DNA of 44,948 nt from Mucilaginibacter sp. (GTDB taxonomy: Bacteria > Bacteroidota > Bacteroidia > Sphingobacteriales > Sphingobacteriaceae), in NCBI GenBank assembly GCA_028287805.1, contig JAQBOY010000099.1, positions 1-44,948 on the forward strand, read 5' to 3'. The notes beneath the pieces are model-generated. The model searched no databases. It saw nothing but the letters and a program-made list of their open reading frames with translations, and was not told the DNA's origin. The position numbers and the translations under genes are program-made. Below are positions 9,831 to 36,269 of this stretch, piece by piece (the stretch's first letter is position 1; the number at the start of each line of letters is the position of its first letter).

Positions 9831-9863
9831 ATCTTGATTGTTTGTAAGCAATAATTTATTCCA

Positions 9864-12080
9864 TTAAATAATTGATACAGTTTTTGATACGGTTTTTTTG
9901 CTGGCAGTAGTTTGGGCATCAGGCTGGCTTCCTCCTACACTAATCATCAATTTACCTTTAACCGCTTTACTGTTGCCATCATTATCTACTAATGCTAAGT
10001 CTTCCGGACTTAATTCAAATTTGATGATCTTGCTTTGGCCAGCCTTTAAAAAGTTTCTTTCAAATCCTTTTAAAGCTCTTATAGGCGCTTTCATACCCGT
10101 ATTTGAATGTGAAATATAAAGTTCAGTAACTTCTTCTCCATCTATTTTACCGGTATTGGTAACTTTTACACTAACCATGTTTTTTTTACCTGATTGTATA
10201 GCGGCAGGAGTGGTTAACATATCATATTTAAAAGTGGTATAACTTAAGCCATAGCCGAAACCATATAATGGCTGACCGTTAAAGTAACGATAGGTACGGT
10301 TATTCATAGAATAATCTTCAAATGAACCTAAGTCACTGTCGCTTTTATAAAATGTTACCGGTAAACGGCCTGCGGGGTTGTAATCGCCAAATAACACATC
10401 AGCAATTGCGGTTCCCGCGTCCTGACCACCATACCAGGCGTTTACTATAGCAGGAATATTTTCTGATTCCCATGGCATAGCTATTGCCGAACCGGTCATC
10501 ATCACAAAAACAACAGGTTTACCGGTTGCTTTCAGCTCTTTTAATAATTGAGTTTGTACGGCAGGTAACAAAATTGAAGTACGGTCGCCACCGGTAAATC
10601 CTGGTTTATTTACCCGCATTTCCTCGCCTTCCAACTGTGGGGCTATACCACCAACATAAACAATTACATCCGCATCTTTAACGCTATCAACCATAGCCTT
10701 AATATTGGGGTTAGGATCAACAAAATCAATTCCCTTTTTATAAACAACCTCAGTACCAGGACCTAATTTTGCTTTTATGCCCTGCAAGGCGGTAACCCGT
10801 TGTGTAGGGATACCGTTATAATTACCCAATATGCTTAACTGGTTATCAGCATTTGGCCCTAATACAGCTATTTTCTTCAGATTTTTACTTAATGGTAAAA
10901 GATGATTTTGGTTTTTTAACAATACAATAGATTGGCGGGCCATTTTTAAAGCCAGCGCATGGTGCGCAGGGCTTTCTAATTCAGTAATCGGAATCTGGCG
11001 GTATTTTACCTGCTCTGCCGGGTCAAATAAACCTAAACGGAAACGAATGGTAAACAGTCTTTTAACAGATGTATTAATCTGATCTTCAGTTATTTTTTTG
11101 TCCTTTACAGCCTGTACTAATGATTTATAAGTAACTCTTCCGCATTCAACATCTGTGCCATGTAATACCGCGTCTGCTGCAGCACTTTCCGCATCAGCTG
11201 AGGTTTGATGGGTATTGGGTTGGTAAAAATCGTCAATGGCGCCACAGTCAGAAGTAAGGTAACCTGTAAAATGCCATTTATCACGTAAAATAGTGTTTAA
11301 TAGCAAGTCGCTGCCACAGCATGGCTGGCCTCTGAAAGCATTATAAGCACACATCACCCCTGCCACTTTTGCCTTTACCACCAAATTTTTAAAAGCCGGC
11401 AGGTAAGTATCCCATAGGTCATGATCACTTACATCTATGTTAAATTTATGCCTTGAAGATTCAGGTCCGCTATGTACAGCATAATGTTTTGCGCAAGCTG
11501 CTGACATTAAATACTTAGGGTCATCACCCTGCAAACCGGTCACAAAAGCATTACCCAGGCTGCCGGTTAAAAACGGATCTTCTCCATAAGTTTCCTGTCC
11601 CCTGCCCCATCTTGGGTCACGGAAAATATTAATATTAGGCGACCAGTAAGTTAAAGCGGTGTATTGTGTATGAATGTTTTTTTTAAGGCTTTCATTGTTA
11701 ATGGCACGACCTTCAACAGCTATATAATTAGCCATTTGATGCACGGAGCGCTGGTCAAATGTTGCAGCATTGGCAACAGCCTGCGGATAAACAGTGGTTT
11801 TATAATACCTGTTGGCACGTGCAACACCATGTAAAGCTTCATTCCACCAGTTAAATTCAGGAATACCTAAACGGTCAATTGCCGGAGCTGCATTAAGCAT
11901 CTGGCCAACTTTTTCTTCCAGTGTCATTTTGGATACCAGATCATTTACCCGTGCTTCAATTGATAAAGCAGGGTCCTGAAATTTGTATTGATATTTTTTT
12001 TTCGTTACCAGCGCTAAGGTTGGTAATAGTAATACTATAAGCAGTAACAGGCTTAATTTGTTAGTAAACAACTTTTTCAT
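9864..12080 (-). CDS. GH3 glycosidase, beta-xylosidase-like
   Basis: 738 residues. A hydrophobic leader (about 8-25) suggests export. The N-terminal TIM-barrel domain holds WWNEALHGVAR, RDPRWGRGQETYGEDPFL, AKHY and the nucleophile motif TSDCGAI (D278). The second alpha/beta domain follows (about 380-600), then a fibronectin-III-like domain (about 640-720). The SDCGAI context and PRWGRGQETYGEDP are characteristic of the xylosidase/arabinofuranosidase branch of GH3, though beta-glucosidase cannot be excluded. It is first gene of a likely GH3-GH8 operon, divergent from the exported YhcH gene at 12323. The shared 242-bp spacer carries a LacI-like palindrome. Confidence 0.92.
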   Translation of the reverse strand: MKKLFTNKLSLLLLIVLLLPTLALVTKKKYQYKFQDPALSIEARVNDLVSKMTLEEKVGQMLNAAPAIDRLGIPEFNWWNEALHGVARANRYYKTTVYPQAVANAATFDQRSVHQMANYIAVEGRAINNESLKKNIHTQYTALTYWSPNINIFRDPRWGRGQETYGEDPFLTGSLGNAFVTGLQGDDPKYLMSAACAKHYAVHSGPESSRHKFNIDVSDHDLWDTYLPAFKNLVVKAKVAGVMCAYNAFRGQPCCGSDLLLNTILRDKWHFTGYLTSDCGAIDDFYQPNTHQTSADAESAAADAVLHGTDVECGRVTYKSLVQAVKDKKITEDQINTSVKRLFTIRFRLGLFDPAEQVKYRQIPITELESPAHHALALKMARQSIVLLKNQNHLLPLSKNLKKIAVLGPNADNQLSILGNYNGIPTQRVTALQGIKAKLGPGTEVVYKKGIDFVDPNPNIKAMVDSVKDADVIVYVGGIAPQLEGEEMRVNKPGFTGGDRTSILLPAVQTQLLKELKATGKPVVFVMMTGSAIAMPWESENIPAIVNAWYGGQDAGTAIADVLFGDYNPAGRLPVTFYKSDSDLGSFEDYSMNNRTYRYFNGQPLYGFGYGLSYTTFKYDMLTTPAAIQSGKKNMVSVKVTNTGKIDGEEVTELYISHSNTGMKAPIRALKGFERNFLKAGQSKIIKFELSPEDLALVDNDGNSKAVKGKLMISVGGSQPDAQTTASKKTVSKTVSII

Positions 12081-12220: not shown

Positions 12221-12240
12221 TCTCGCAATCGATTGCGGGA
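12221..12240. promoter_or_regulatory. LacI-type operator palindrome (class A)
   Basis: A 20-bp dyad with 9 of 10 pairs and a central CG; the inner 14 bases CGCAATCGATTGCG are a perfect palindrome. It sits in the divergent spacer, 141 bp upstream of the GH3 start and 83 bp upstream of the YhcH start. A related site, sharing AATCGATTGC, precedes the transporter at 13046-14413. Symmetry and central CG are typical of LacI-family operators; the regulator itself is not in the window. Confidence 0.65.
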
Positions 12241-12322: not shown

Positions 12323-12952
12323 ATGAGAAACCTGTCAACGTACAATAGCCTGGCTATTTTAACTGCTTTTTTATTGATGAGCAGTGTAGCTTTATCACAA
12401 AAAACTAACCCCGCGAACTGGAATAAAAAAACAGCCGACAAATGGGTTAAAAGTAAGGCATGGGCTCCTGACCTGAAAATTCAGCTCGATCCGTCAGTTA
12501 ATAGTGTGGAGTTTGCCAAACAATATAATGCTAATAAAGCCGACTGGGATAAAGCATTTGATTTTTTAGAAAAACAGGATCTGGCCAATTTAAAACCCGG
12601 TAAATATCCAATTGACGGTGATAATGTATATGCACTGGTATCCAATGACCCGCTAAAGGAACCTGCCCAATCAAACTGGGAAGATCATCATAACTATGTT
12701 GACCTGCATTATGTAATTGAAGGCGCAGAAAAAATAGGTACAACACCGTTTACAAATGTTAAAGAAGTGGTAACACCATTTGATGAAACCAAGGATATTG
12801 GTTTTTATAAATACGATAATGGCGATTACTATACAGCCACCCCTAAAAACTTTTTTCTTTTCTTTCCTGCAGAGGCACATCGCCCGCATTTAAAGCTGGA
12901 TGGTTATGATAAAGCAAAAAAGGTAGTTATTAAAATCAGGATGGCTAAATAG
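12323..12952 (+). CDS. Exported YhcH/YjgK/YiaL-family protein (copy 1)
   Basis: 209 residues: a signal peptide (about 1-25, ending VALSQ), a lysine/tryptophan-rich linker, then a YhcH domain (about 60-208). The conserved elements are LKPGKYPIDGDNVYA, NWEDHHNYVDLHYVIEGAEKIG and FFLFFPAEAHRPHL, which include the likely metal ligands (Glu, His, and the His of AHRP). The E. coli member NanQ (YhcH) is reported as a sialic acid anomerase, so a sugar-ring-opening or anomerase role is plausible. Export to the periplasm is unusual because characterised members are cytoplasmic. It is convergent with an ACS transporter across a bidirectional terminator, and a second such module lies at 20987-22972. Confidence 0.9.
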   Translation: MRNLSTYNSLAILTAFLLMSSVALSQKTNPANWNKKTADKWVKSKAWAPDLKIQLDPSVNSVEFAKQYNANKADWDKAFDFLEKQDLANLKPGKYPIDGDNVYALVSNDPLKEPAQSNWEDHHNYVDLHYVIEGAEKIGTTPFTNVKEVVTPFDETKDIGFYKYDNGDYYTATPKNFFLFFPAEAHRPHLKLDGYDKAKKVVIKIRMAK

Positions 12953-12980
12953 TATTATACATAATACCTTAGTAATAAAA

Positions 12981-13018
12981 AAAACAGCGGTTGGGTTTAA
13001 AACCCAACCGCTGTTTTT
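12981..13018. terminator. Bidirectional Rho-independent terminator
   Basis: The stem AACAGCGGTTGGGTTT pairs with its complement downstream around a few A/T bases, flanked by an A-run on the left and a T-run on the right. It lies between two convergent genes (YhcH copy 1 ending 12952 and transporter 1 ending 13046) and can serve both strands. Confidence 0.93.
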
Positions 13019-13045
13019 TATTAACTCAAATATTTAAATGATTAA

Positions 13046-14413
13046 TTAAATGGCTATAACCTGTTTTTTAGCAGTAAGCGCCCTGATAATTATCCAGGCT
13101 ACTATATAAGTAAGTGCACAAAAAGTAAATAATATGGTATATGCGATATTTGGAGTTGCAGCATAATAATCTGTTAGCCTGCCTACCAGTTTTTGGATCA
13201 GGAATCCACCAACGCCACTTCCTAAACCACCTATGCCTATTACCGAACCAATAGCTTTTTTAGGGAAAAAGTCTGACACGGTAGTAAAAAGATTGGCTGA
13301 CCATGCCTGATGCGCGGCAGCACCCAAACATAAAACCATAATAGCTAACACAGAGGCATTGCTGCCAAAGTTTTCTTTATTCCCGAAATATTGAATGCTT
13401 AATAATGATAATGGCAATAACGCGATGATGAACATAGCACGCATACGTGCACTGTAAACCGTCATTCCTTTACTAATAAAAAACATAGGTAAACTTCCGC
13501 CAAAAAGGCTTCCTATAATTGATATGCCATAAACAATAAATGTGGGCCACTTTAATTGTTCAGTGCTCATGTTAAACTGTTTATGCAAGTAATCCGGCAG
13601 CCAAAAAAGCAGGAAATACCATACACCATCAGTAAGAAATTTACCCATAAAAAACGCCCATGTTTGCGGAAAGGTCAGTAGCTTCCACCAGGATACCTTT
13701 TCCCGTACTGCCACATCTTCTGATGGCCCTACATGTGCAACAAGGTCATCCGTTTGAACATCATCACTATGAATATAGTCAAATTCTTCTTTGGTTAATT
13801 GTTTAGACTTTGCAGGGGTATTATATAACAAGAACCAAAATAACAGCCATATAAATCCAAATCCGCCCGTTAACAGGTAAGCCATTTTATAGCCGGTTAT
13901 TAACCCGAAATATGCCAGGCACCAGGGCACAAATAAGGCGGCTACCATAGCTCCTAAATTGGTACCGCTGTTAAAAATACCGGTAGCCAAAGCCCGTTCT
14001 TTTTTAGGGAACCATTCAGCTACTGTTTTAATTGATGCGGGAAAATTTCCTGCTTCACCAATGCCAAATAAACTCCTGATTATAGCATTAACTGCAACCG
14101 AGCTGCCAGAAAAAGCATTCAGCATACCAAAAATTGACCATATAATTAATGAAAGTGCGAGGCCCAGTTTAGTGCCTATCCTATCAATCAATAAACCTGA
14201 AAAAATGGTAATAACAGAATAAAACAGGGTGAATAAACCGGTTACTGTGCTATAGTCAGAATTACTCCAGCCAAATCCGCCCTTATCTACAGGCGTAGAT
14301 AAAAAAACTTTTAAATAACTAATTACCTGGCGATCAACATAATTAATGGTGGTAGAAAAAAGAAGAAGGGATATAATTACCCATCTGTATTTTCCCATAC
14401 GGCTTTCTTTCAT
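13046..14413 (-). CDS. MFS transporter, ACS family, hexuronate (ExuT)-like (copy 1)
   Basis: 455 residues with about 12 transmembrane helices. The ACS-family signature is clear: NYVDRQVISYL in helix 1 and the segment IGEAGNFPASIKTVAEWFPK followed by ERALATGIFNSGTNLGA. Close family members carry galacturonate and glucuronate across the inner membrane by proton symport. The neighbouring KDPG aldolase and KDG kinase fit a uronate substrate. A class-A LacI-like site lies 38 bp upstream of the start codon. A paralogue with the same core motifs is at 21620-22972. The exact substrate is inferred. Confidence 0.92.
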   Translation of the reverse strand: MKESRMGKYRWVIISLLLFSTTINYVDRQVISYLKVFLSTPVDKGGFGWSNSDYSTVTGLFTLFYSVITIFSGLLIDRIGTKLGLALSLIIWSIFGMLNAFSGSSVAVNAIIRSLFGIGEAGNFPASIKTVAEWFPKKERALATGIFNSGTNLGAMVAALFVPWCLAYFGLITGYKMAYLLTGGFGFIWLLFWFLLYNTPAKSKQLTKEEFDYIHSDDVQTDDLVAHVGPSEDVAVREKVSWWKLLTFPQTWAFFMGKFLTDGVWYFLLFWLPDYLHKQFNMSTEQLKWPTFIVYGISIIGSLFGGSLPMFFISKGMTVYSARMRAMFIIALLPLSLLSIQYFGNKENFGSNASVLAIMVLCLGAAAHQAWSANLFTTVSDFFPKKAIGSVIGIGGLGSGVGGFLIQKLVGRLTDYYAATPNIAYTILFTFCALTYIVAWIIIRALTAKKQVIAI

Positions 14414-14450
14414 AATTGGATTAAATTGGTTTCTATAATTGATTGGTTAT

Positions 14451-14468
14451 ACTGGAATCGATTGCAAT
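14451..14468. promoter_or_regulatory. Probable LacI-type operator (class A, imperfect)
   Basis: The site centres on the palindrome AATCGATT (14456-14463) with partly symmetric flanks, and shares AATCGATTGC with the 12221-12240 palindrome. It lies about 38 bp upstream of transporter 1, where a repressor could block transcription. The flanking symmetry is weaker than at the 12221 site. Confidence 0.5.
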
Positions 14469-14540
14469 CTAATTATAAAAACCAAATTTCACCACACAGT
14501 CACCATATTTTTATAACTGGATTTTAATTGAATAAATAAA

Positions 14541-15200
14541 TTATCTGCTGGCTTTTACTATTTCAATAGCTTGTTTAGTAGCCGCAGTTAACTCCTCATA
14601 TTTTTTCCCTTCCATCAGCTCTTTGCTAATCAGCTTACTTCCCATTCCAACTGCGCAAACACCCGCTTTAAACCATGCACCAATATTTTCTTTATTTAGC
14701 TCAACCCCACCTGTTGGCATAAATAAAAGATTGGGAAACAATTCTTTAACAGCTGATAAAAATGCCGGGCCTAAAATATTTCCCGGGAATAATTTAACCA
14801 CTTTAGCGCCCAAATTTTCCGCGTTTATAATTTCAGAAGGCGTCATACAACCCGGCACCCAAAGCAAATCATGTTTATTTGCCACATGTATCACATCTTC
14901 AACTAATCCCGGGCTTATAATATAATCGGCGCCTGCATCAATAAAAGCCTGCGCGCTTGCAGCATCTTTTATTGTTCCAATACCTAAATACATCCCTCCT
15001 AATTCTTTATCACAAACCTCACGCAGCCTGGCAAAATTTTTCAAAGCTGCCTCTCCACGATTAGTGTATTCAACAGTTCTTATATCGGCTTTATATAAAG
15101 CATGTAAAATATTTATACTAACTTCTGTATCCTTGTTAAAATACAATGGTAATATACCTTGCTCTGGTATAAGATTTAAAATTGTTGCCTTTTTATTCAT
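14541..15200 (-). CDS. eda: KDPG/KHG aldolase
   Basis: 219 residues, class I aldolase of the Eda/KdgA family. It cleaves 2-keto-3-deoxy-6-phosphogluconate to pyruvate and glyceraldehyde-3-phosphate. The Schiff-base lysine is K136 in AKVVKLFPGN, and the catalytic glutamate is E45 in TVEYTNRGEAAL. The phosphate-binding glycine segments FMPTGGV and VGMGSKL are also present. No signal peptide; cytoplasmic. It is divergent from KDG kinase, and the 201-bp spacer carries a class-B LacI-like operator 70 bp upstream of this start. The two genes together form the lower half of uronate catabolism. Confidence 0.95.
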   Translation of the reverse strand: MNKKATILNLIPEQGILPLYFNKDTEVSINILHALYKADIRTVEYTNRGEAALKNFARLREVCDKELGGMYLGIGTIKDAASAQAFIDAGADYIISPGLVEDVIHVANKHDLLWVPGCMTPSEIINAENLGAKVVKLFPGNILGPAFLSAVKELFPNLLFMPTGGVELNKENIGAWFKAGVCAVGMGSKLISKELMEGKKYEELTAATKQAIEIVKASR

Positions 15201-15270
15201 GTTATTGATATTTTGGGGTTAAATGTAAAAAGAAACATTTAATAACAGACGCTAAATAAGGGTAAAATGT

Positions 15271-15290
15271 TTACGCAAACGTTTAAGTAA
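15271..15290. promoter_or_regulatory. LacI-type operator (class B)
   Basis: TTACGCAAACGTTTAAGTAA pairs at 8 of 10 symmetric positions around a central CG. Its left half is identical to the stronger dyad at 23047-23068 over TTACGCAAACGT. It lies in the aldolase/KDG kinase divergent spacer, so one site could control both genes. Confidence 0.6.
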
Positions 15291-15328
15291 TTTTTATTTA
15301 AAAACTTCGTAATTAGTTATGTTTAGTG

Positions 15329-15336
15329 TAATTTTG
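15329..15336 (+). promoter_or_regulatory. Candidate -7 promoter box for KDG kinase
   Basis: TAATTTTG matches TAnnTTTG, lies 65 bases upstream of the KDG kinase ATG, and is 38 bp downstream of the class-B operator. No good -33 TTTG is seen. The same octamer occurs before the YhcH gene at 20987. Confidence 0.35.
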
Positions 15337-15401
15337 ACCACTACGGGTAAGTGTAGAAGCATTTATAAACCTATTTTTCAATTTTAAAAATATTAATTTC
15401 G

Positions 15402-16427
15402 ATGTCTAAAAAAGTCGTAACACTGGGAGAAATAATGTTGAGGTTATCAACTCCTGATTTCAAAAGATTTGTACAAGCTGATTCATTTGACGTTACTTAT
15501 GGTGGCGGAGAAGCAAACGTTGCAGCAGCACTTTGCAACTACGGATTAAACGGAACATTTGTATCTAAAGTACCGGCAAACCCAATTGGTCAGGCTGCTA
15601 TCAACCACTTACGCCGCTATGGTGTAGACACCCAGTTTGTTGCCCGTGGCGGAAAACGTTTAGGCATCTATTTTTTAGAAACAGGTGCTTCCATGCGTGC
15701 CTCACAAGTAGTTTATGACCGTGCTGATGCTTCCATTTCTGAAGTTGACATCAGTGAATTCGATTTTGATAAAATATTAGAAGGTGCGGACTGGTTTCAT
15801 ACAACCGGTATCACTCCTGCACTGAGCGATAAAGCTGCTGAACTTACTTTGGCTGCTTTAAAAGCCGCTAAAGCCAAAGGCATAACTACCAGTATTGATT
15901 TGAACTACCGCAAAAAATTGTGGAGCAAAGAAAAGGCCCGCGAAGTAATGACCCGTTTATGCGAGTATGTGGATGTTTGTATTGGTAACGAAGAAGATGC
16001 CGATACTACCTTAGGCTTTAAAAGCGCCGGTACTGATGTTACCAAAGGCGAATTAAATCTGGATGGTTATAAAGATGTGTTTAAACAAATGAAAGATAAA
16101 TTTGGCTTTAAATATATTGCTTCTACTTTAAGAGAAAGCCATAGCGCATCTGATAACGGCTGGAGCGCATTGGTATATGATGGTACTGAATTTTATCATA
16201 GCAAACAATACGAAGTACGGATAGTTGACCGTGTGGGCAGCGGCGATTCATTTGCCAGCGGCTTTATATACGGTTTGGTTACCGGTTTAAAAATGAGCGA
16301 TGCCGCTGAGTTTGGTGTGGCAGCTTCAGCTATTAAACATACTATCCCCGGCGACTTAAACCATGCTACTTTAGCAGAAGTACAGGAATTAGTTAAGGGT
16401 GACGGTTCAGGAAGAGTACAGCGATAG
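15402..16427 (+). CDS. kdgK: 2-keto-3-deoxygluconate kinase (PfkB family)
   Basis: 341 residues, ribokinase/PfkB fold. It phosphorylates KDG to KDPG with ATP. The N-terminal substrate-binding region has GGGEANVAAALCNYG. The C-terminal anion hole and catalytic base are in DRVGSGDSFASGFIYGL, with D282 as base; GSGD replaces the more common GAGD. A cytoplasmic enzyme, encoded next to the KDPG aldolase that uses its product. A cytoplasmic YhcH gene follows 66 bp downstream on the same strand, separated by an inverted repeat. Confidence 0.94.
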   Translation: MSKKVVTLGEIMLRLSTPDFKRFVQADSFDVTYGGGEANVAAALCNYGLNGTFVSKVPANPIGQAAINHLRRYGVDTQFVARGGKRLGIYFLETGASMRASQVVYDRADASISEVDISEFDFDKILEGADWFHTTGITPALSDKAAELTLAALKAAKAKGITTSIDLNYRKKLWSKEKAREVMTRLCEYVDVCIGNEEDADTTLGFKSAGTDVTKGELNLDGYKDVFKQMKDKFGFKYIASTLRESHSASDNGWSALVYDGTEFYHSKQYEVRIVDRVGSGDSFASGFIYGLVTGLKMSDAAEFGVAASAIKHTIPGDLNHATLAEVQELVKGDGSGRVQR

Positions 16428-16435
16428 TTTTGAAT

Positions 16436-16477
16436 AGTCGATAGTCCATAGTAAACCTACACCGTGGACTATCGACT
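16436..16477. repeat. Perfect 13-bp inverted repeat
   Basis: AGTCGATAGTCCA (16436-16448) and its exact complement (16465-16477) flank a 16-nt loop between KDG kinase and the cytoplasmic YhcH gene. There is no T-run, so it is not an intrinsic terminator of the usual kind. It may be a small intergenic repeat or an mRNA-processing or stability hairpin within an operon. Confidence 0.75.
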
Positions 16478-16493
16478 CAAATAATAACAAATT

Positions 16494-16943
16494 ATGATCA
16501 TAGATACTTTAGCCAATGCTGAAAAATATTACGGCTTGCATAAAAATTTCAAGGCTGCATTTGAGTACCTGAACAACCAAAACCTGGAAGCGATGGAAGT
16601 GGGCAAATACGATATTGCCGACGGCCTTAACGCTGGTGTAACTGAAAAGGATGGTGTAACCGCAGAAACTGCTGCTCAAAAATTTGAATGCCACAACAAA
16701 AATATTGATATACAGGTATGCATCAGCGGACATGAAACCATGGGATGGAAACCGCGTACAGATTGTACCCAACCCAAAGGTGAATATAATAACGAAAAGG
16801 ATGTATTGTTTTATGCTGATGCACCCGACATGCACTTCAGCTTAAAAGGCGGCCAGTTTGTTATTTTCTACCCGGATGATGTACATGCGCCTATGATAGG
16901 TGAAGGGCCTATCAAAAAAATGGTGGTAAAGGTGAAGATCTAA
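16494..16943 (+). CDS. Cytoplasmic YhcH/YjgK/YiaL-family protein
   Basis: 149 residues, the usual length of the family, with no signal peptide. Conserved elements are EVGKYDIADGLNAGV, KFECHNKNIDIQVCISG and FVIFYPDDVHAP, carrying the Glu/His metal-ligand positions. The family is tied to sugar-acid operons; E. coli NanQ acts as a sialic acid anomerase. Placement after KDG kinase suggests work on an intracellular uronate or a keto-deoxy acid. It is the third YhcH-type protein in the window and the only one without an export signal. Confidence 0.9.
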   Translation: MIIDTLANAEKYYGLHKNFKAAFEYLNNQNLEAMEVGKYDIADGLNAGVTEKDGVTAETAAQKFECHNKNIDIQVCISGHETMGWKPRTDCTQPKGEYNNEKDVLFYADAPDMHFSLKGGQFVIFYPDDVHAPMIGEGPIKKMVVKVKI

Positions 16944-16980
16944 CCTATAGATACACAATATTTTTACATTGAATAATTCT

Positions 16981-17018
16981 GGAGGCTGTACTATAAAATG
17001 GATAGCCTCCTTCTTTTT
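16981..17018 (+). terminator. Rho-independent terminator after YhcH
   Basis: GGAGGCT (16981-16987) pairs with AGCCTCC (17004-17010), and TTCTTTTT follows. It lies 38 bp past the YhcH stop and ends the KDG kinase/YhcH transcript. Confidence 0.75.
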
Positions 17019-17029
17019 AATCATGTTTA

Positions 17030-17049
17030 CGTTCATAATAACATGAACG
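17030..17049. repeat. Short inverted repeat
   Basis: CGTTCAT-AATAAC-ATGAACG is a perfect 7-bp dyad with a 6-base spacer, just past the YhcH terminator. The function is unknown; it could be a protein-binding site. Confidence 0.5.
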
Positions 17050-17103
17050 CCTGATGAACATTCATTAACAACTGAAAATCTAATAGAAATGCAGGAAGTT
17101 TTT

Positions 17104-17250
17104 TATTAAAGCAAGAGTTTTACAGCAGTCGCTTCGGCTCTTGCCGGGTGACCTGTATCACAAGGCCTCCGGCCTACTGCGGCAAGATGCCGCTTAATAT
17201 TGCTTACCCGGCAAGAGCCGGGCGAGTGCTGAGAGCCAGCACTTTATTTA
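17104..17250. repeat. GC-rich, multiply structured intergenic element
   Basis: A perfect 15-bp stem (17135-17149 with 17206-17220) encloses two smaller hairpins: AGGCC-TCC-GGCCT (17163-17175) and GCGGCA-AGA-TGCCGC (17179-17193). A fourth hairpin, AGTGCT/AGCACT (17225-17243), is followed by an A/T-rich tract. GCAAGAG occurs at 17111 and again at 17211, and both copies can pair with CTCTTGC at 17138, which gives alternative folds. The base composition is much richer in GC than the surroundings. It may be a palindromic repetitive element or a structured RNA. It directly abuts the stop of the kinase gene. Confidence 0.7.
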
Positions 17251-19656
17251 TTAATCCTGATCTACTTGCGTCTGCCTGCGTACAGGAATTTCTAAAACAA
17301 ATGTCGATCCCTGGCCAGACGTGCTTTCTACCCATAATTTACCCTTGTGCCCGTCAATTATTTCATGGCTGATGTATAAGCCTATCCCTAAGCCCGACAT
17401 ATGTGCCGCTAAATTTTCTACCCGGTAAAACCTGGAAAAAATTCGCTCCTGCTGATCAGGCGCTATACCTATCCCAAAATCCTGTACAGATATTCTTATT
17501 TTATCCTCTAAAGATTTAGCATGGATAACTATTCGTTGATCGTTAGGTGAGTATTTAACCGCGTTCGAGATCAGGTTGATAATTACCTGTTCAATTCTCT
17601 GCTGATCAGCCTCTACTATTAAACCCTCCTCACAATGCAGTTCCATTAAATGTGAGGTATTGGTTTGGCGCATAATGTCAGTAACCTCTTTCAGTAGTAC
17701 ACACAGGTCAAAGTTGCAATAAGTAAAGGGCAGTTTTCCGGTTTGAATTTTAGAAATATCCAGCAGGTCAGAAATTAAAGCCGCTAATTTATTTACCTGT
17801 TGACTGGCTTTTACAATAAATGATTTATTCCGGTCATCCGGTGCAAAATTTCGTTCAATCAGTTGAAGATACCCTTTAATACTTGTTACGGGAGTTTTTA
17901 ACTCATGGCTGGCCAGCCCTATAAATTCATCTTTCTTAGAATTAAGCACCTTAATTTCTTCGTATAATTTAGCATTATCTAAAGCAATAGCTGCCTGGGC
18001 GGTTACAGCGGATATTAATTGTTCGTGTTCTTCAGTAAATCTTCCGGGTTTATGATGACCAAAAAACAGCCCGCCTATAACCGACCCTGATTTAGAGAAT
18101 ACAGGCATCGCCATATAACTCACCACTGGTAAATGGCCTTTTGGCATACCGAAATGAGGCGCGCTTTTTCCGTAACTCGGATCCTTGGTAATATCATCTA
18201 CCCTAACGATCTTTTCACCACTAAAGGTGGGATGAAACACGGCTGTATTTCGTGGCATACCAAAGTTTTCAAAGGTTTCTTTTGGAGCGCCTGATAAAGT
18301 GTATAATCGATAGGATTCGCCCTTTTCATCAACTTTATTGTAAAAGAATGCACCAAAATCCGCTCCGGCCAATTGGGTGGTGGCATCTGTTACTTTTTGT
18401 AAAACATCCTGTATATCCAGGTTTTCGGCTATAACTTTACCAAGCGAGTTCAATATCTCTAAATTTTGAGCATATTGCTGGAGCTTGCCTTCTGTAAGTT
18501 TTTTTTCGCTGATATCGCGGGCGATCTTTGAAGCTCCAACAATTCTTCCAATTACATCCTTTACAGGAGAAACAGAAAGAGAAATGGGTATTTCCCTGCC
18601 ATCCTTTGCAATACGGATGGTTTCAAAATGATCTACTTTGTTTCCCTGAGCAATACTATTGATGATAATATCCTCTTCTGCAAGGCGTGAGGGTGGAATT
18701 AACAAAGAAATATGTTTTCCCAACACCTCTTCTTTTGTATATCCGAACATTCTTTCTGCCGCCCTGTTCCAGCTGCTAATAATACCTTTAAGATTTTTAC
18801 TGATAATGGTATCATCAGAAGTATCAACTATGGCAGCAAGCATAGCCTGATTTTCATAGGCTTGCTTCTTATCGCTAATGTCACGGGCAATTTTTGATGC
18901 GCCTATAATTTGTCCTGTACTGTCCCTTATGGGAGAAACAGAAAGAGAAACGGGTATTTCTCTGCCATTCTTTGCAACACGGATAGTTTCAAAATGATCT
19001 ACTTTTTCACCTTGAGCAACATTGCCGAGGATAATATCCTCCTCTGCAAGGCGTGATGATGGAATTAACAAAGAAATATGTTTTCCTAACGCCTCTTCTT
19101 TCGTATACCCGAACATTCTTTCTGCCGCCTTATTCCAGCTACTGATAACCCCTTTAAGGTTTTTACTGTAAATAGCGTCATCAGAAGTATCCACTATAGC
19201 AGCAAGCATAGCCTGGTTTTCATCGTATTTTTTTTGTCCGGTAATATCAATCAGTGTATTAGTAGCGCCTATTAATGTTCCGGCGGCATCAAATGTAGGA
19301 ACAGGATAAGGCAATACGTTTCTGTAACTACCATCGGGGCGCTGTATAATTATTTGCTCTCCCTCAATTGCAATCCCTTCCTTTAGTACTCTTGCCATTG
19401 GGCAGTCATCCAGGGGTAAACTATCCCCATCCGGTTTAAATATTTTCCACGAACCACACCACAGATCCTTGCCAATCTCCGGCTCTCTTCCCCAAAGTTT
19501 TACTGCTGCACTGTTATACCCTGTAATATAACCCCAACGGTCACAAGTATAAATAGCAACCGGTAATTGATCAAAAAGCTGAGGTAACTGTATATTGTTT
19601 ATATCTGATATAGCATTTTTTTTAAGAAGCGTATCATTATTTAAAGTATGGGCCAT
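17251..19656 (-). CDS. PAS-PAS-PAS-GAF sensor histidine kinase
   Basis: 801 residues, soluble. Three PAS domains (about 20-140, 145-265 and 268-388) precede a GAF domain (about 400-560), a HisKA domain with H584 in ASHELKTPVTSIKGY, and a complete ATPase domain (N-box QVIINLISNAVKYS, G1 DFGIGIAPDQQ, G2 SGLGIGLYIS). PAS2 and PAS3 are near-identical over long stretches (ENQAMLAAIVDTSDD; AAERMFGYTKEE; GKHISLLIP), which shows a recent internal duplication. The last PAS of the kinase at the left edge is also similar. No receiver gene is adjacent. A long perfect hairpin lies 23 bp upstream of the start. Confidence 0.95.
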   Translation of the reverse strand: MAHTLNNDTLLKKNAISDINNIQLPQLFDQLPVAIYTCDRWGYITGYNSAAVKLWGREPEIGKDLWCGSWKIFKPDGDSLPLDDCPMARVLKEGIAIEGEQIIIQRPDGSYRNVLPYPVPTFDAAGTLIGATNTLIDITGQKKYDENQAMLAAIVDTSDDAIYSKNLKGVISSWNKAAERMFGYTKEEALGKHISLLIPSSRLAEEDIILGNVAQGEKVDHFETIRVAKNGREIPVSLSVSPIRDSTGQIIGASKIARDISDKKQAYENQAMLAAIVDTSDDTIISKNLKGIISSWNRAAERMFGYTKEEVLGKHISLLIPPSRLAEEDIIINSIAQGNKVDHFETIRIAKDGREIPISLSVSPVKDVIGRIVGASKIARDISEKKLTEGKLQQYAQNLEILNSLGKVIAENLDIQDVLQKVTDATTQLAGADFGAFFYNKVDEKGESYRLYTLSGAPKETFENFGMPRNTAVFHPTFSGEKIVRVDDITKDPSYGKSAPHFGMPKGHLPVVSYMAMPVFSKSGSVIGGLFFGHHKPGRFTEEHEQLISAVTAQAAIALDNAKLYEEIKVLNSKKDEFIGLASHELKTPVTSIKGYLQLIERNFAPDDRNKSFIVKASQQVNKLAALISDLLDISKIQTGKLPFTYCNFDLCVLLKEVTDIMRQTNTSHLMELHCEEGLIVEADQQRIEQVIINLISNAVKYSPNDQRIVIHAKSLEDKIRISVQDFGIGIAPDQQERIFSRFYRVENLAAHMSGLGIGLYISHEIIDGHKGKLWVESTSGQGSTFVLEIPVRRQTQVDQD

Positions 19657-19679
19657 TACATTATAACATTTATTCCGCC

Positions 19680-19731
19680 AAGTTGTTAAAGGTATTTATT
19701 TTATTTATTAAAAAAATACCTTTAACAACTT
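19680..19731. repeat. 18-bp perfect hairpin upstream of the sensor kinase
   Basis: The arms 19680-19697 and 19714-19731 are exact complements (arm AAGTTGTTAAAGGTATTT) around a 16-base A/T loop. It begins 23 bp before the kinase ATG. A/T-rich arms without a flanking T-run make a standard terminator for the upstream formimidoyltransferase gene uncertain; it could be a leader hairpin or a binding site. Confidence 0.75.
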
Positions 19732-19823
19732 ATGTTTACAACATTACTTAGTTGATACTTAGTATCTTAACTGCAACAACAAGTACTAAGCCAAAGTATA
19801 TACCAGCACCACTTATCGTTGTT

Positions 19824-20858
19824 TTACAAGGCTTTATTCTTCAACTGATATTCAATAATCCGCTTTGCAGGATAAAATGGCGCCAGTTCATCTAACCCCA
19901 TAGCTTTTACCGCTATAAGGATCAGTTCATTTTCGTTTACTTCTGCGCTGCTTTGTTGTTTTTGCAGAAAGTATTTACCCGCGTCAAGCAAGGCTTTAAG
20001 TGGTACCATGCCTATTAGTTCACTCCCTGTTACTTGTATACCTCTTGCAGCAGCACAATTACAAACCTCTTCAAAGGCAATATGCAACGGCGTTACCGCC
20101 AGGTTGGTCAGGTTCATAGATACCTGTGCAATACCATACTCTTCAATATACCAGCCAATAGCTTTAACAGCCTTTAAGGTACCGGGTTGCTTTGCAGGTA
20201 CGTTGTCGTTTACCTGCTCGCCTTCACGTATTATACGCCCTGATTCGCGCACATCAAAAGCGATAGCATTGGCCATAGCTACAGAAGTAGTGTTAAGGTT
20301 AACGTTATAAGCTACTAAAAAATCTCTTGCACCTATAACTGTAGCGCCTCGTTTAATATCCATTTCCACCGGACCAAAATCAGGCAGCCATCCGGGTAAT
20401 TTTATCTTTTTAAAAAAACCTTCATATTCGCCGGCACGGATAACCGACAAATTACTGCGGGTTTTATCTGCCTGGGCATATTCATATAAATAAACAGGGA
20501 TACCTAACTCCTCACCTACCCTTTTACCTAACATACGGGCATAGGCGGCAGTTTCTTCTAAAGTTATATTACTGATAGGTATCAACGGACAAACATCTGT
20601 AGCACCCATACGCGGATGCTCGCCGTGCTGACGGCTCATATCAATCAATTCACCCGCCTTTTTGATGGCTAAAAAGGCGGCTTCAATAACTGCATCTGCC
20701 TCACCTGCAAAAGTAACTACCGTTCTGTTAGTGGCTTTGCCGGGGTCTACATTCAATACCTGCACTCCATTTACAGTGGTAATCACATCCGTTATTTGCT
20801 TAATGATATTTAAGTTGGCCCCTTCGCTAAAATTAGGCACGCATTCAATTAGTCGCAT
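19824..20858 (-). CDS. ftcD: Glutamate formimidoyltransferase
   Basis: 344 residues. It transfers the formimino group from N-formimino-L-glutamate to tetrahydrofolate in histidine degradation. Landmarks are ECVPNFSEGAN at the N-terminus, RQHGEHPRMGATDVCPLIP with the catalytic histidine (H81), and ARDFLVAYNVNL before the C-terminal subdomain. It corresponds to the transferase half only; the cyclodeaminase half found in the fused FtcD enzymes is missing, as is usual in many bacteria. No other hut gene is nearby, so it is isolated among sugar-acid genes. Confidence 0.94.
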   Translation of the reverse strand: MRLIECVPNFSEGANLNIIKQITDVITTVNGVQVLNVDPGKATNRTVVTFAGEADAVIEAAFLAIKKAGELIDMSRQHGEHPRMGATDVCPLIPISNITLEETAAYARMLGKRVGEELGIPVYLYEYAQADKTRSNLSVIRAGEYEGFFKKIKLPGWLPDFGPVEMDIKRGATVIGARDFLVAYNVNLNTTSVAMANAIAFDVRESGRIIREGEQVNDNVPAKQPGTLKAVKAIGWYIEEYGIAQVSMNLTNLAVTPLHIAFEEVCNCAAARGIQVTGSELIGMVPLKALLDAGKYFLQKQQSSAEVNENELILIAVKAMGLDELAPFYPAKRIIEYQLKNKAL

Positions 20859-20925
20859 TTAGTTATTAGTGATTTTTGAATTGGTAATAATGCAAAATTA
20901 TTTATTACAGCGAATGATATTTTAT

Positions 20926-20933
20926 TAATTTTG
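20926..20933 (+). promoter_or_regulatory. Candidate -7 promoter box for exported YhcH copy 2
   Basis: TAATTTTG matches TAnnTTTG and lies 53 bases before the ATG at 20987. A convincing -33 element is not seen. Confidence 0.35.
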
Positions 20934-20986
20934 ATAAGTAGCTGTATATAGGCCCTGAAATTCATCTCAATTTAACCTTTTCAATA

Positions 20987-21604
20987 ATGAGTATTTTAAA
21001 TATCAAAAAAATGGCATTGCTTTTTGCTTTGGCTATGGTAACTAACCATCTTATTGCACAAACTACCGACTCAGTTGCTAACATTAAAAAAGCCGATAAA
21101 TGGGTAAAAAGCAATGCATGGGCAAAAGATTTAAAAATAAAGCTGCACACACCAGTAAATAGTGTTGAATTTAAAAGACAATACGAGTTAAATAAAACCA
21201 TTTGGGATAAAGTATTTACCTTTTTAGACGATAGTAAATTATCAACCCTTGCACCTGGTAAATACCCCATAGAAGGCACCGGTTTATTTGCTTCAATTAC
21301 AGAAGCGCCGTCAAAAAAGTTTGAGGATACCAAATGGGAATCGCACCGTAAGGTTATTGATCTGCAATATATTATTATAGGGAAAGAAAAAATGGGCAAA
21401 GCTCCTGTTTCAACCGCTACTGTTACACAAGCTTATAACTCAACCAAAGATGTAGCCAATTATACAACAGAGGGCACATACGCTATTGCTACACCAATGG
21501 AATTCTTCCTGTTTTTTCCGGATGATGCACACAGGCCCAGCATTATTGTTGATGGTTATGATACCGTAAAAAAATTGGTCATAAAAATTCCATATACGCA
21601 ATAA
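20987..21604 (+). CDS. Exported YhcH/YjgK/YiaL-family protein (copy 2)
   Basis: 205 residues with a signal peptide (about 1-25, ending HLIAQ) and a YhcH domain (about 55-204). It is clearly paralogous to the protein at 12323-12952: both have KADKWVKS-AWA-DLKI after the signal and share the VNSVEF, PGKYPI and FFLFFP blocks. Likely metal ligands are kept in WESHRKVIDLQY and DDAHRP. The function is inferred to be a periplasmic sugar-acid anomerase or isomerase-like activity. It is convergent with ACS transporter copy 2, whose stop is 15 bp away, so the pair repeats the arrangement at 12323-14413. Confidence 0.9.
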   Translation: MSILNIKKMALLFALAMVTNHLIAQTTDSVANIKKADKWVKSNAWAKDLKIKLHTPVNSVEFKRQYELNKTIWDKVFTFLDDSKLSTLAPGKYPIEGTGLFASITEAPSKKFEDTKWESHRKVIDLQYIIIGKEKMGKAPVSTATVTQAYNSTKDVANYTTEGTYAIATPMEFFLFFPDDAHRPSIIVDGYDTVKKLVIKIPYTQ

Positions 21605-21619
21605 TGTTCCCCGTATTGT

Positions 21620-22972
21620 TTACACCTCTATTTCGGGTGCTTTGGCTGTTAATACTTTTATAAAGCCCCAGGCTATAATATAGGCCAAGGCGCAAATAGT
21701 AAACATGATAAGGTAAGCAAATTGAGGGTTTGAATGATAATGGGTATTTAATATACCTGATAATCTTTGAATAATTACACCACCAATACCGCCGGCCATG
21801 CCGCCAATACCTATTACAGAGCCTACAGCTTTTTTAGGGAACATATCTGATACTGTTGTAAAAAGATTAGCTGACCAGGCTTGATGAGCTGCCGCGCCAA
21901 TGCAAATAACAGCTATGGCCAAAACAGAAGCATAATTCCCGAATATAGCCTTGTTGCCAAAGTATTGGGTAAGCAATAAGAACAAAGGGAACAATGCTAT
22001 AATGAACATGGCATTCATCCTGGCTTTATTTACCGGCATACCCCGGTTAATCATTATTCGCGGAAGGTTACCGCCAAAAGTACTGCCGAAAATAGAAATG
22101 GTATATACTATAAATATTGGCCAGATAATTTGGTGAACATCCATTCCAAATTGTTTTTTCAAATAATCAGGTAACCAGAATAATAAGAACCACCAAATAC
22201 CGTCGGTCAAAAATTTCCCCATAAAAAAGGCCCATGTTTGGGGATAGCGAAATAGTTTCCACCAGGATATTTTTTCCTTTACAGCAACATCTTCAGACGG
22301 GGCGGCATGTACAGCCAGCTCATCTTCATGTATATAATCAAACTCCTCTTTTGAAACAAACTTTGACTTTGCCGGAGGATTATACAGTGTGAACCAAAAG
22401 ATCAGCCATAAAAACCCAACAGCGCCTGTAATAATATAAGCCATTTTCCAACCCACTGCTTCGCCCCAGTATATCAAGCACCAGGGTACAAATAAAGCAG
22501 AGATCATAGCGCCAATATTAGAGCCGCTATTAAATACGCCTGTAGCTAATGCCCGTTCTCTTTTAGGGAACCACTCCGCAATGGTTTTGATGGATGCCGG
22601 GAAATTACCGGCCTCACCAATACCAAATAAACTTCTAATAATGGTATGAACTACTACTGAACTGCCCGCAAAAGCATTCAGCATTCCAAAAACCGACCAG
22701 ATAATCAATGAAAGCGCCAACCCCAGTTTGGTACCAATTTTATCAATAATAAACCCCGCGAATATGGTAACACCGGCATAAAAAGCAGTAAAAAAGGAAG
22801 TTACATATGAGTATTGGTTATCTGTCCAACCGAAACCACCTTTAGCTACAGGGGTGCAAAAATAATCTTTTACATAACTGATTACCTGGCGGTCCATGTA
22901 ATTGATAGTAGTTGAGAAAAGCAATAAGGTTGCAATTACCCATCTGTATTTGCCTATTTTGGTTTGCTGCAT
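21620..22972 (-). CDS. MFS transporter, ACS family, hexuronate (ExuT)-like (copy 2)
   Basis: 450 residues, about 12 transmembrane helices, closely similar to the transporter at 13046-14413 along its whole length. Shared blocks include TTINYMDRQVISY, FGIGEAGNFPASIKT, EWFPKRERALATG and AAAHQAWSANLFTTVSD. Substrates of the family are hexuronates and related sugar acids. The upstream site differs from that of copy 1: here a strong class-B palindrome lies 75 bp before the start, so the two carriers are probably induced by different signals. Substrate specificity is inferred. Confidence 0.92.
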   Translation of the reverse strand: MQQTKIGKYRWVIATLLLFSTTINYMDRQVISYVKDYFCTPVAKGGFGWTDNQYSYVTSFFTAFYAGVTIFAGFIIDKIGTKLGLALSLIIWSVFGMLNAFAGSSVVVHTIIRSLFGIGEAGNFPASIKTIAEWFPKRERALATGVFNSGSNIGAMISALFVPWCLIYWGEAVGWKMAYIITGAVGFLWLIFWFTLYNPPAKSKFVSKEEFDYIHEDELAVHAAPSEDVAVKEKISWWKLFRYPQTWAFFMGKFLTDGIWWFLLFWLPDYLKKQFGMDVHQIIWPIFIVYTISIFGSTFGGNLPRIMINRGMPVNKARMNAMFIIALFPLFLLLTQYFGNKAIFGNYASVLAIAVICIGAAAHQAWSANLFTTVSDMFPKKAVGSVIGIGGMAGGIGGVIIQRLSGILNTHYHSNPQFAYLIMFTICALAYIIAWGFIKVLTAKAPEIEV

Positions 22973-23046
22973 GGTTTAGATTTACTGGTTGGTCATTTCA
23001 AATGTATTGTTGTTGTTAATGGTAATCAAATTTTAGCCTATTATTT

Positions 23047-23068
23047 TTTACGCAAACGTATGCGTAAA
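23047..23068. promoter_or_regulatory. LacI-type operator palindrome (class B)
   Basis: The 22-bp dyad running from TTTACGCA to TGCGTAAA has 10 of 11 pairs symmetric around a central CG. It lies 75 bp upstream of transporter 2 and about 200 bp upstream of lutA. It shares TTACGCAAACGT with the site between KDPG aldolase and KDG kinase. This is strong evidence for a LacI-family operator. Confidence 0.72.
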
Positions 23069-23267
23069 TAAATTTGGCATATATCAATATAACTATGTAA
23101 GAAAATTGCATTAAATAATTTGATTAAAATCTCTACTTTTAGCCGTAGCTACTGCAATGGGCTACATTAACATTAATAAAGAGTGGAACAACAAGCCAAT
23201 ACTTAATGATAGGTATTGAATTAAAATGTTACTTCCTCTAATCAAACTATTACTACTATTACTATAT

Positions 23268-24008
23268 ATGAGAGTTGGATTATTTATACCTTGTTACGTT
23301 GACCAATTTTACCCCGGTGCCGCTATTGCCACTTTACAACTGCTGGAAAAACTGGGTGTAAATGTGTTTTATCCTAAAAACCAAACCTGTTGCGGGCAAC
23401 CTATGGCAAACTCTGGGTTTGAACATTTAACAGGTGGGTGTAACGAGCTGTTTCTAAAGAATTTTTCAGAATTTGATTATGTTGTGGCTCCTTCAGGCAG
23501 CTGCGTTTTGCATATCAGAGAACATTTACATGATGATAAAGACCCCGAAGCGGCAAAAACATTAAGCCATAAAGTTTATGAGTTAACTTCCTTTTTAACC
23601 GATGTATTAAAGGTTACGTCATTACCCGCTAAATTTCCGCACAAGGTGGGTTTTCATCAAAGCTGTCATGGTCAGCGGGGATTACACCTTTCGCAAATGA
23701 GCGAACTGGTAGCCCCGGATTTTTCAAAACCTGGTAGCTTGTTAAATATGGTTGAAGGCATTGAGATAATTTCGCTTAACCGGGTGGATGAATGCTGCGG
23801 GTTTGGCGGTACTTTTTGTGTTGCTGAAGAAGCCGTATCTGTAAAAATGGGTAAAGACAGGGTTACTGACCATTTAGAACATGGCGCCGAATATATTACC
23901 GGCGTAGACATGTCATGCCTGATGCATATGGAAGGAATTTTACACCGGCAGGGAAGTAAGGTTAAAGTACTGCATATTGCACAGATATTAAACGGGGAAC
24001 AGGAGTAA
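23268..24008 (+). CDS. lutA: L-lactate utilisation protein LutA (Fe-S, CCG domains)
   Basis: 246 residues from the ATG at 23268 (MRVGLFIPCYVDQFYP). An ATG at 23226 would add a leucine-rich 14-residue stretch absent from the family. Two cysteine-rich CCG domains are present: NQTCCGQPMANSGFEH near residue 45 and DECCGFGGTFCVAEEA near residue 178. With LutB and LutC it forms the cytoplasmic iron-sulfur complex that oxidises L-lactate to pyruvate. First gene of a tight operon (12-bp gaps). Confidence 0.93.
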   Translation: MRVGLFIPCYVDQFYPGAAIATLQLLEKLGVNVFYPKNQTCCGQPMANSGFEHLTGGCNELFLKNFSEFDYVVAPSGSCVLHIREHLHDDKDPEAAKTLSHKVYELTSFLTDVLKVTSLPAKFPHKVGFHQSCHGQRGLHLSQMSELVAPDFSKPGSLLNMVEGIEIISLNRVDECCGFGGTFCVAEEAVSVKMGKDRVTDHLEHGAEYITGVDMSCLMHMEGILHRQGSKVKVLHIAQILNGEQE

Positions 24009-24020
24009 AAGCGACCAGAT

Positions 24021-25400: not shown

Positions 25401-25412
25401 ATAATACCTGAA

Positions 25413-25997
25413 ATGAGCAGCAGAGATAAAATATTAGCAGCAGTTGCAGCCAATCAGCCTCAGTTAACGGCTTTACCTGATATCAGCTTTTTAAAAGGTG
25501 ATGGTACAGGTGCGCTGGAAAAATTTGTGAATACACTTACGGCTATTGGCGGTAAAGTAATAGAGATAAGCAGCCTTGATGATATTGTGGCACATATAAA
25601 AGCAACTACAACTCTTAGCCACCGGGTAATAAGTACATTATCCGGACTTTCGGAGGCTACTGAAATCATAAATGATAGCGTAGTTTTACCTCATACTTTT
25701 CAGGATGTGGAGCTAACCATCATTAACGCGCATTTAGGTGTTGCCGAAAACGGTGCGGTTTGGATAAAAGATGACCTCCTGAACCATAGGGTACTGCCTT
25801 TTATATGTCAGAATTTGGCTATTGTATTGCAAAAAAAGGAAATAGTACCTACCATGCATGAAGCCTATGAAAAGATTGGTCTTGAAAAATATGGTTTCGG
25901 AACTTTTATTGCCGGGCCATCAAAAACGGCGGATATTGAACAATCACTGGTTTTAGGGGCGCATGGCTCACGTACAATGACTGTTTTTTTAGTATAA
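25413..25997 (+). CDS. lutC: L-lactate utilisation protein LutC (LUD domain)
   Basis: 194 residues, a single LUD domain. Conserved segments are LGVAENGAVWIKDD near residue 110 and the C-terminal FIAGPSKTADIEQSLVLGAHG. It is the third component of the LutABC complex. The length is slightly short of the B. subtilis protein but typical of Bacteroidota. Last gene of the lut operon; no clear terminator follows before the altronate dehydratase gene 166 bp downstream. Confidence 0.92.
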   Translation: MSSRDKILAAVAANQPQLTALPDISFLKGDGTGALEKFVNTLTAIGGKVIEISSLDDIVAHIKATTTLSHRVISTLSGLSEATEIINDSVVLPHTFQDVELTIINAHLGVAENGAVWIKDDLLNHRVLPFICQNLAIVLQKKEIVPTMHEAYEKIGLEKYGFGTFIAGPSKTADIEQSLVLGAHGSRTMTVFLV

Positions 25998-36251: not shown

Positions 36252-36269
36252 TCCTATTTGAAAATAATC

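Follow-up and report, generated by a model that had tools for sequence, protein, structure and literature searches.

Two convergent pairs of exported DUF386 and transporter genes in Mucilaginibacter as candidates for separately assembled hexuronate uptake

Introduction

A 44,948-nucleotide stretch of DNA from Mucilaginibacter sp. (GenBank assembly GCA_028287805.1, contig JAQBOY010000099.1, positions 1-44948), hereafter the window, carries the same pair of genes twice: a gene for an exported protein of the DUF386 (YhcH/YjgK/YiaL) family, convergent with a gene for a major facilitator superfamily (MFS) transporter. Did a single module duplicate here, or were two pairs assembled independently? 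An initial annotation took the first view, proposing that a module for uronate uptake had been duplicated and its copies assigned to different inducers. We find that the two copies have different nearest relatives and lie beside operators of two types. In our estimate there is about an even chance that the window holds two separately assembled and differently switched hexuronate uptake pairs, each made up of an exported DUF386 anomerase or ring-opener and an MFS importer.

The sialate pathway offers two points of comparison, NanQ and the beta-propeller protein NanM. Excerpts of PMC8141875 describe Escherichia coli YhcH, or NanQ, as a zinc-containing cytosolic anomerase of N-acetylneuraminate (Neu5Ac), termed there in 2021 the first functional identification in DUF386. 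The same excerpts describe NanM, purified without significant metal, as a periplasmic protein that helps in use of the Neu5Ac alpha-anomer, with NanT carrying the beta-anomer. For gene control, excerpts of PMC3878776 assign the KdgR, UxaR, UxuR and UxmR regulons of Bacteroides to LacI-family regulators, list some periplasmic or extracellular proteins in the KdgR and UxmR regulons, and place XylR of B. thetaiotaomicron in the NrtR family. In the excerpts of PMC8141875, PMC12125979, PMC10766802, PMC11381880 and PMC3878776 that we searched, we found no description of exported DUF386 proteins or of their pairing with uronate importers. A large exported class tied to KduI and to importers would give DUF386 a second substrate class and a second compartment.

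The two pairs have different nearest relatives

Copy 1 consists of YhcH1 (12323-12952, + strand) and T1 (13046-14413, - strand), and copy 2 of YhcH2 (20987-21604, + strand) and T2 (21620-22972, - strand), with intergenic gaps of 93 and 15 bases, respectively. The four open reading frames (ORFs), their order and their orientation were correctly annotated, and the proteins in both positions are indeed paralogous: YhcH1 and YhcH2 are 47% identical over 196 aligned columns, and T1 and T2 are 69% identical over 455. We did not use the difference between these two values as evidence, because YhcH diverges more than the transporter elsewhere (57% and 85%, respectively, for copy 2 compared with the relative G288). 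Both transporters score above the cut-off of 33.4 bits for Pfam MFS_1 (T1, 163 bits; T2, 183 bits). The best NCBIfam match for both is TIGR00893 (2A0114), at 203.7 and 215.6 bits and thus below its cut-off of 395, and the "ACS transporter" label they had been given names the nearest model only.

We placed these genes among 149 genomes of the genus, counting that of the window, which is one contig of an incomplete draft (84.9% complete, 500 contigs). T-clade transporters (E <= 1e-200) occur in 30 of the 149 genomes, and two copies occur in the window genome only. The transporter tree, of 39 rows, joins T1 to the transporter of the relative G349 (support 100/100) and places T2 inside a 14-row clade (100/100); a sister relationship of T1 and T2 is rejected in an approximately unbiased (AU) test (p 4.5e-6). 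In a 108-row YhcH tree that includes the G349 orthologue, YhcH1 likewise pairs with G349 (100/100), YhcH2 falls inside a 16-row clade (100/96), and YhcH1 and YhcH2 are rejected as sisters (p 0.0054). Without the G349 orthologue their sisterhood was not rejected (p 0.141 and 0.131), and the shift upon its addition arises in part simply because G349 splits YhcH1 from YhcH2. Since the nearest relatives differ in both trees, a recent tandem duplication of the module is rejected, and the duplication proposed in the initial annotation fails in its simple form. These positions suggest that the two pairs were assembled by different routes.

Gene order in related genomes

The copy-2 order, with YhcH and T convergent and KduI beyond YhcH, recurs in seven of the 29 other T-clade genomes (G165, G288, G335, G337, G342, G350 and G380). 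Genes for 2-keto-3-deoxy-6-phosphogluconate (KDPG) aldolase and 2-keto-3-deoxygluconate (KDG) kinase lie behind T in six of these seven loci, and the stretch fetched for G342 does not contain them. G376 adds an eighth convergent case, with a transporter just 50% identical to T2. All eight carry a YhcH of the 16-row YhcH2 clade. We excluded G072, G131 and G261 as convergent pairs, since there the exported YhcH genes and more distant transporters are divergent.

T1 belongs to a block of another type. Behind it lies a gene for a KDPG/4-hydroxy-2-oxoglutarate (KHG) aldolase (14541-15200, - strand), which matches Pfam Aldolase and scores 238 bits against NCBIfam PRK07114, below the cut-off of 275. 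Divergent from it are a PfkB-family kinase gene (15402-16427, + strand), by its context likely a KDG kinase, and a third DUF386 gene (16494-16943, + strand) whose product has no signal peptide and is probably cytosolic. The genes that separate the two pairs are therefore not all unrelated to them, as had been thought: these three make up a set for uronate catabolism. The same block with a T-clade transporter occurs in G192, G121, G349, G320 and, with an extra ORF, in G374; with a more distant transporter it occurs in G240 and G243. In the examined blocks of these seven genomes, no exported YhcH gene adjoins T. G349 carries its T1 and YhcH1 orthologues on separate contigs, in no convergent arrangement; after the YhcH1 orthologue come a 109-amino-acid ORF and a 908-amino-acid ORF, and no transporter. 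Given G349 and the other T1-type blocks, the copy-1 pairing is known from the window genome only, so that conservation of the convergent pair in relatives holds for copy 2.

An exported DUF386 class with a putative metal site

All three DUF386 matches of the window genome fall inside the window, at 138 bits (YhcH1), 120 bits (YhcH2) and 154 bits (the third protein) against a cut-off of 26.5 for PF04074. A search for exported-type YhcH proteins (E <= 1e-45) returned 124 matches, spread over 106 of the 149 genomes. We built a 107-row YhcH tree, and from among the matches we examined 105 loci, 90 of which have at least 6 kb on both sides; L050, L070, L073 and L079-L085 were dropped from both sets for long branches or distant genera. 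One record, L192, is titled Williamsia sp. and holds a Bacteroidota-type exported YhcH gene, probably through a binning or labelling error.

Export signals were scored from sequence by a simple script and not by a trained predictor. YhcH1 and YhcH2 each begin with a predicted Sec-type signal, ending in LSQ and IAQ, respectively. A hydrophobic N-terminal stretch is present in 104 of the 107 exported-type rows, and an AxAQ-like end in 84. These predicted signals support the annotation of YhcH as exported. Residues E118, H120, D125 and H182 align to residues of HI0227, and all 107 of the 107 rows have them unchanged. Their position suggests that they are the four side-chain ligands of a metal site; YhcH1 keeps these candidate ligands. 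Also conserved across the 107 rows are W39, which is invariant, and the N-terminal stretch that follows the signal.

An AlphaFold model of YhcH2, for which the alignment drew on the best 80 of 345 confirmed stretches, has a mean predicted local distance difference test (pLDDT) score of 88.8. The predicted fold is that of DUF386: the solved structures 1s4c (Z 15.3; 144 aligned residues, 2.9 Å), 4tsd (Z 14.9) and 9jrr (Z 14.6) align to it, and the best structure from outside the family reaches Z 8.1.

On function, the nearest rival to an anomerase of saturated uronates is a KdgF-like activity, in which exported DUF386 would linearise a Δ4,5-unsaturated uronate in the periplasm instead of equilibrating saturated-uronate anomers. 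KduI is the immediate divergent neighbour of exported-type YhcH in 59 of the 105 loci, and GH88-type (glycoside hydrolase family 88) hydrolases or an alginate-lyase-family protein often lie near by (28 and 17 of 105 loci, respectively); such neighbours fit unsaturated substrates. BeKdgF ring-opens unsaturated monouronate, according to excerpts of PMC11381880, and KdgF cupin structures align to the YhcH2 model (Z 6.7 and 6.6), yet these scores lie within the range of common cupin matches. Moreover, a small cupin gene (cluster c10, one checked member of which is Cupin_2) that may be KdgF itself is present in 16 of the 105 loci, and copy 1 sits with xylan genes, where unsaturated uronate is not expected. 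We consider a KdgF-like role unlikely, and favour equilibration or ring-opening of free uronates.

Two operator types near the pairs

Two palindromes, both centred on CG, which we take to be the form of a LacI-like operator, occur in the window. Operator B is GCAATCGATTGC, with the core GCAATC|GATTGC; operator A has the core GCAAAC|GTTTGC, and the two differ by one base per half-site. A perfect B site lies between YhcH1 and the glycoside hydrolase family 3 (GH3) gene divergent from it (12225-12236), and a B site with one mismatch lies upstream of T1 (14454-14465); B also precedes the T1 orthologue in G349. An A site with two mismatches lies between the KDPG aldolase and KDG kinase genes (15271-15290), and one with a single mismatch lies between T2 and the divergent LutA gene (23048-23067). 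The annotated difference between the operators of the copies thus stands for B at copy 1 and A at T2. Their placement was described differently: B precedes both YhcH1 and T1, and YhcH2 has neither.

Within the window, A (up to three mismatches) occurs at two sites against 0.02 expected, a number that none of 100 shuffles reached. The 12-base B alone (up to two mismatches) occurs at four sites against 1.8 expected, a number reached by six of 100 shuffles, and with this weak excess the case for B rests on its genome-wide counts. With up to one mismatch, B has 14 sites in the genome against one for the reversed control, the highest number among the 149 genomes; with up to two, it has 27 sites against eight, including the site at 12224. 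Operator A has two sites in the genome, both in the window, against none for its control, and a looser pattern finds the same two against one.

Seven of the 14 B sites adjoin xylan or xylose genes. One lies on contig C315, where a LacI gene is divergent from genes for a xylulokinase-like protein (305 bits; cut-off 380), a xylose isomerase (over its cut-off) and a solute:sodium symporter (SSF); another is at a GH67 gene (C455). Two are at a glucuronyl-esterase-like gene matching Pfam GCE_fung (C443), presumably of carbohydrate esterase family 15 (CE15); one is at an esterase gene with another glucuronyl-esterase-like gene after it (C72); and two precede a run of genes in which the third encodes a GH10 enzyme (C90). 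T1's own site is one more of the 14. Separately, the B sites on C26 and C127 (L268 and L270) precede proteins that reach just 81 and 137 bits on an alpha-galacturonidase model with a cut-off of 1300; we regard both as candidate enzymes of xylan or uronate metabolism.

We scanned 30 relatives' loci with a loose pattern and without a chance control. Nine of them carry A-type sites in the gap that separates KduI from exported YhcH, and five carry them in the one separating KDPG aldolase from KDG kinase; such sites also occur at UxaC/KDG kinase. Some relatives' sites have cores intermediate between A and B. In G349, the region between the KDPG aldolase and KDG kinase genes (L276:4273-4286) holds a B-type site where the window has A, which suggests that A and B operators have been exchanged between relatives.

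Our reading is that B belongs to a xylose/xylan LacI regulon and A to a uronate LacI regulon. The LacI gene on C315 is the putative regulator of B sites, and a second LacI of the genome, on C428, is 76% identical to a LacI from a relative's kdu locus. Because B recurs beside xylose and xylan genes across the genome, copy 1 seems to be under xylose control. The proposal of different inducers therefore survives in outline, with two LacI-type operators, and the split would be between xylose and uronates rather than between two uronates.

The xylose and arabinose regulators of Bacteroides belong to the NrtR/AraR-type family. The window contains a gene for an NrtR/AraR-type Nudix regulator (5637-6338); in G219 and G336, a relative 66% identical to it is encoded close to a gene for exported YhcH (L026 and L154). 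With Bacteroides XylR an NrtR-type protein, this gene was a candidate for the regulator of the B sites; we preferred the C315 LacI, which has xylose genes as neighbours and a B site in front.

A proposed division of labour in uronate uptake

In the mechanism we propose, the exported, metal-dependent DUF386 protein would act in the periplasm as an anomerase or ring-opener of free uronates, supplying the MFS importer near by with the form that it moves through the inner membrane, much as NanM serves NanT. The cytosolic paralogue encoded at 16494 would catalyse the same reaction inside the cell and provide the open form for catabolic enzymes. Copy 2 is most likely a remnant of a uronate locus of the KduI type, still intact in other Mucilaginibacter, and may have been inherited as a pair. 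Copy 1 would be the block of transporter, KDPG aldolase, KDG kinase and cytosolic YhcH, which an exported YhcH joined in this genome. A LacI-type, probably xylose-responsive regulator would switch T1 and YhcH1 together with glucuronoxylan enzymes, and a second LacI-type regulator, belonging to the uronate pathway, would control T2 and the KDG genes. If so, xylose released from glucuronoxylan would switch on uptake of the co-released glucuronate, and the split between uronate-type and xylose-type operators would illustrate on a small scale how Bacteroidota may couple uptake of a side chain to sensing of the backbone as xylan is broken down. A wider form of the proposal is that exported DUF386 proteins are a broad class of periplasmic hexuronate anomerases or ring-openers serving importers across Bacteroidota, one set of which has here been captured by a xylose-responsive LacI regulon; we put it forward tentatively, as somewhat short of an even chance.

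The exported proteins resemble YhcH/NanQ in their Pfam family, predicted DUF386-like fold, E/H/D/H set aligned to HI0227 and association with a sugar-acid pathway. They differ in being exported rather than cytosolic, in their conserved post-signal stretch, in having uronate instead of sialate neighbours and in falling below the NanQ model cut-off. The likeness to NanM and NanT, if our reading is right, would be that of a periplasmic anomerase supplying a transporter; the substrate is different, and NanM, unlike YhcH, was purified without significant metal (excerpts of PMC8141875). KdgF is likewise a ring-opening enzyme of cupin fold tied to uronate loci (excerpts of PMC11381880), but it is a small cupin, for which some exported-YhcH loci have a separate gene, whereas the exported protein belongs to DUF386. 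As in Bacteroides, uronate genes would here be under the control of LacI-family regulators; the B. thetaiotaomicron XylR, however, is of the NrtR family (excerpts of PMC3878776), whereas here a LacI gene lies beside the xylose genes.

Weighing separate assembly against the alternatives

A number of observations weigh against separately assembled, differently switched uptake pairs. The 128 bases upstream of YhcH2 contain no A site (best, nine mismatches) and no B site (best, five mismatches), no better than shuffles. Six of the 14 genome-wide B sites (C92, C26, C127, C231, C348 and C351) have no clear xylan gene or lie inside an ORF, nine of the 30 loci in the loose scan of relatives showed neither A nor B, and binding of B by the C315 LacI is itself a prediction. 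The N-acetylneuraminate anomerase model NF040884 scores 77.0 (YhcH1), 73.9 (YhcH2) and 79.8 bits (the 16494 protein), below its cut-off of 160, and we infer the substrate and anomerase activity of exported DUF386 by analogy. Among the 107 exported-type rows, 13 signals end in a lipobox-like motif, so that some of these proteins may be lipoproteins, and three rows have no hydrophobic stretch. The two genomes on which the copy-1 case turns are incomplete drafts, that of G349 being 87% complete in about 360 contigs, and the YhcH1 orthologue of G349 is truncated at the start of its contig. YhcH2 is best placed beside seven rows, among them a second copy from G165. Over about 6 kb their loci have neither a transporter nor KduI, contig ends truncating two of the seven. 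Grouping YhcH2 instead with the eight convergent rows is 6.1 log units worse and not rejected (p 0.307). With YhcH2 in this position, the case for copy 2 having been inherited as a pair depends on T2 and the order of the genes.

The trees also leave room for a much older event, in which a convergent YhcH-T ancestor doubled before the species split and most genomes then lost or broke one copy. Three unions are not rejected: T1 and its G349 orthologue with the T2 clade (p 0.241), YhcH1 and its orthologue with the whole YhcH2 clade (p 0.268), and YhcH1 and its orthologue with YhcH2 by itself (p 0.118). Because whole-clade unions survive, a very old duplication keeps some standing, and the shared convergent order of the two copies also speaks for it. 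On the other side, the T1 and YhcH1 orthologues of G349 are arranged otherwise, the other T1-type blocks we examined lack an exported YhcH beside T, all eight convergent cases outside the window hold a YhcH2-clade protein, and no other genome of the 149 has two T-clade copies. We judge an ancient duplication improbable.

The pairing might instead carry no function: YhcH and T would be neighbours merely as members of uronate loci sharing a terminator, with exported YhcH acting on something unrelated to T. A terminator-like stem of 19 pairs, flanked by an A run and a T run, does lie between the convergent genes of copy 1 (12979-13019; found on the - strand in the scan). Exported-type YhcH converges with a transporter in just eight of the 105 loci outside the window; 77 of the 105 lack, within 6 kb, a transporter of this type, defined by a BLAST match to T1 or T2 above 80 bits, 15 of the 105 being truncated. 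YhcH lies away from the transporter in the T2-clade genomes G219, G336 and G351, and the closest rows to YhcH2 have no transporter near by. Set against this, such a transporter does lie within 6 kb in 28 of the 105 loci, the divergent KduI gene is found in the majority given above, and operator B precedes both YhcH1 and T1. This explanation is in our view doubtful, if to be taken seriously, and we retain the functional pairing of exported YhcH with the importer as part of the preferred reading.

Neighbouring genes and minor observations

On the copy-1 side, the GH3 gene divergent from YhcH1 (9864-12080, - strand) has as its closest model the xylan 1,4-beta-xylosidase Xyl3A, at 942 bits and below the cut-off of 1250. 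Downstream of it lies a gene for a GH8 enzyme (8502-9851, - strand; Pfam Glyco_hydro_8, 67 bits). On the copy-2 side, LutABC-like lactate-utilisation genes (23226-25997, + strand; Pfam CCG, LUD and LutB_C) are divergent from T2 and are followed by a UxaA-like altronate/galactarate dehydratase gene (26164-27816, + strand; Pfam GD_AH domains). Together with the catabolic core between the pairs, these flanks mark a uronate/xylan region with two uptake pairs. A histidine kinase gene and an FTCD gene, also between the pairs, look foreign to it. Since an A site lies in the intergenic region of T2 and LutA (22973-23225), the lactate genes may share the uronate switch.

The window genome has a third transporter, 45% identical to T1 and truncated by a contig end (C87; L264:4446-5609), which adjoins a cytochrome c/DUF7133 gene. 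Further along the window, at 33123-37589, two adjoining amidohydrolase genes lie upstream of a SusC/SusD-like pair and bear no relation to the uptake genes.

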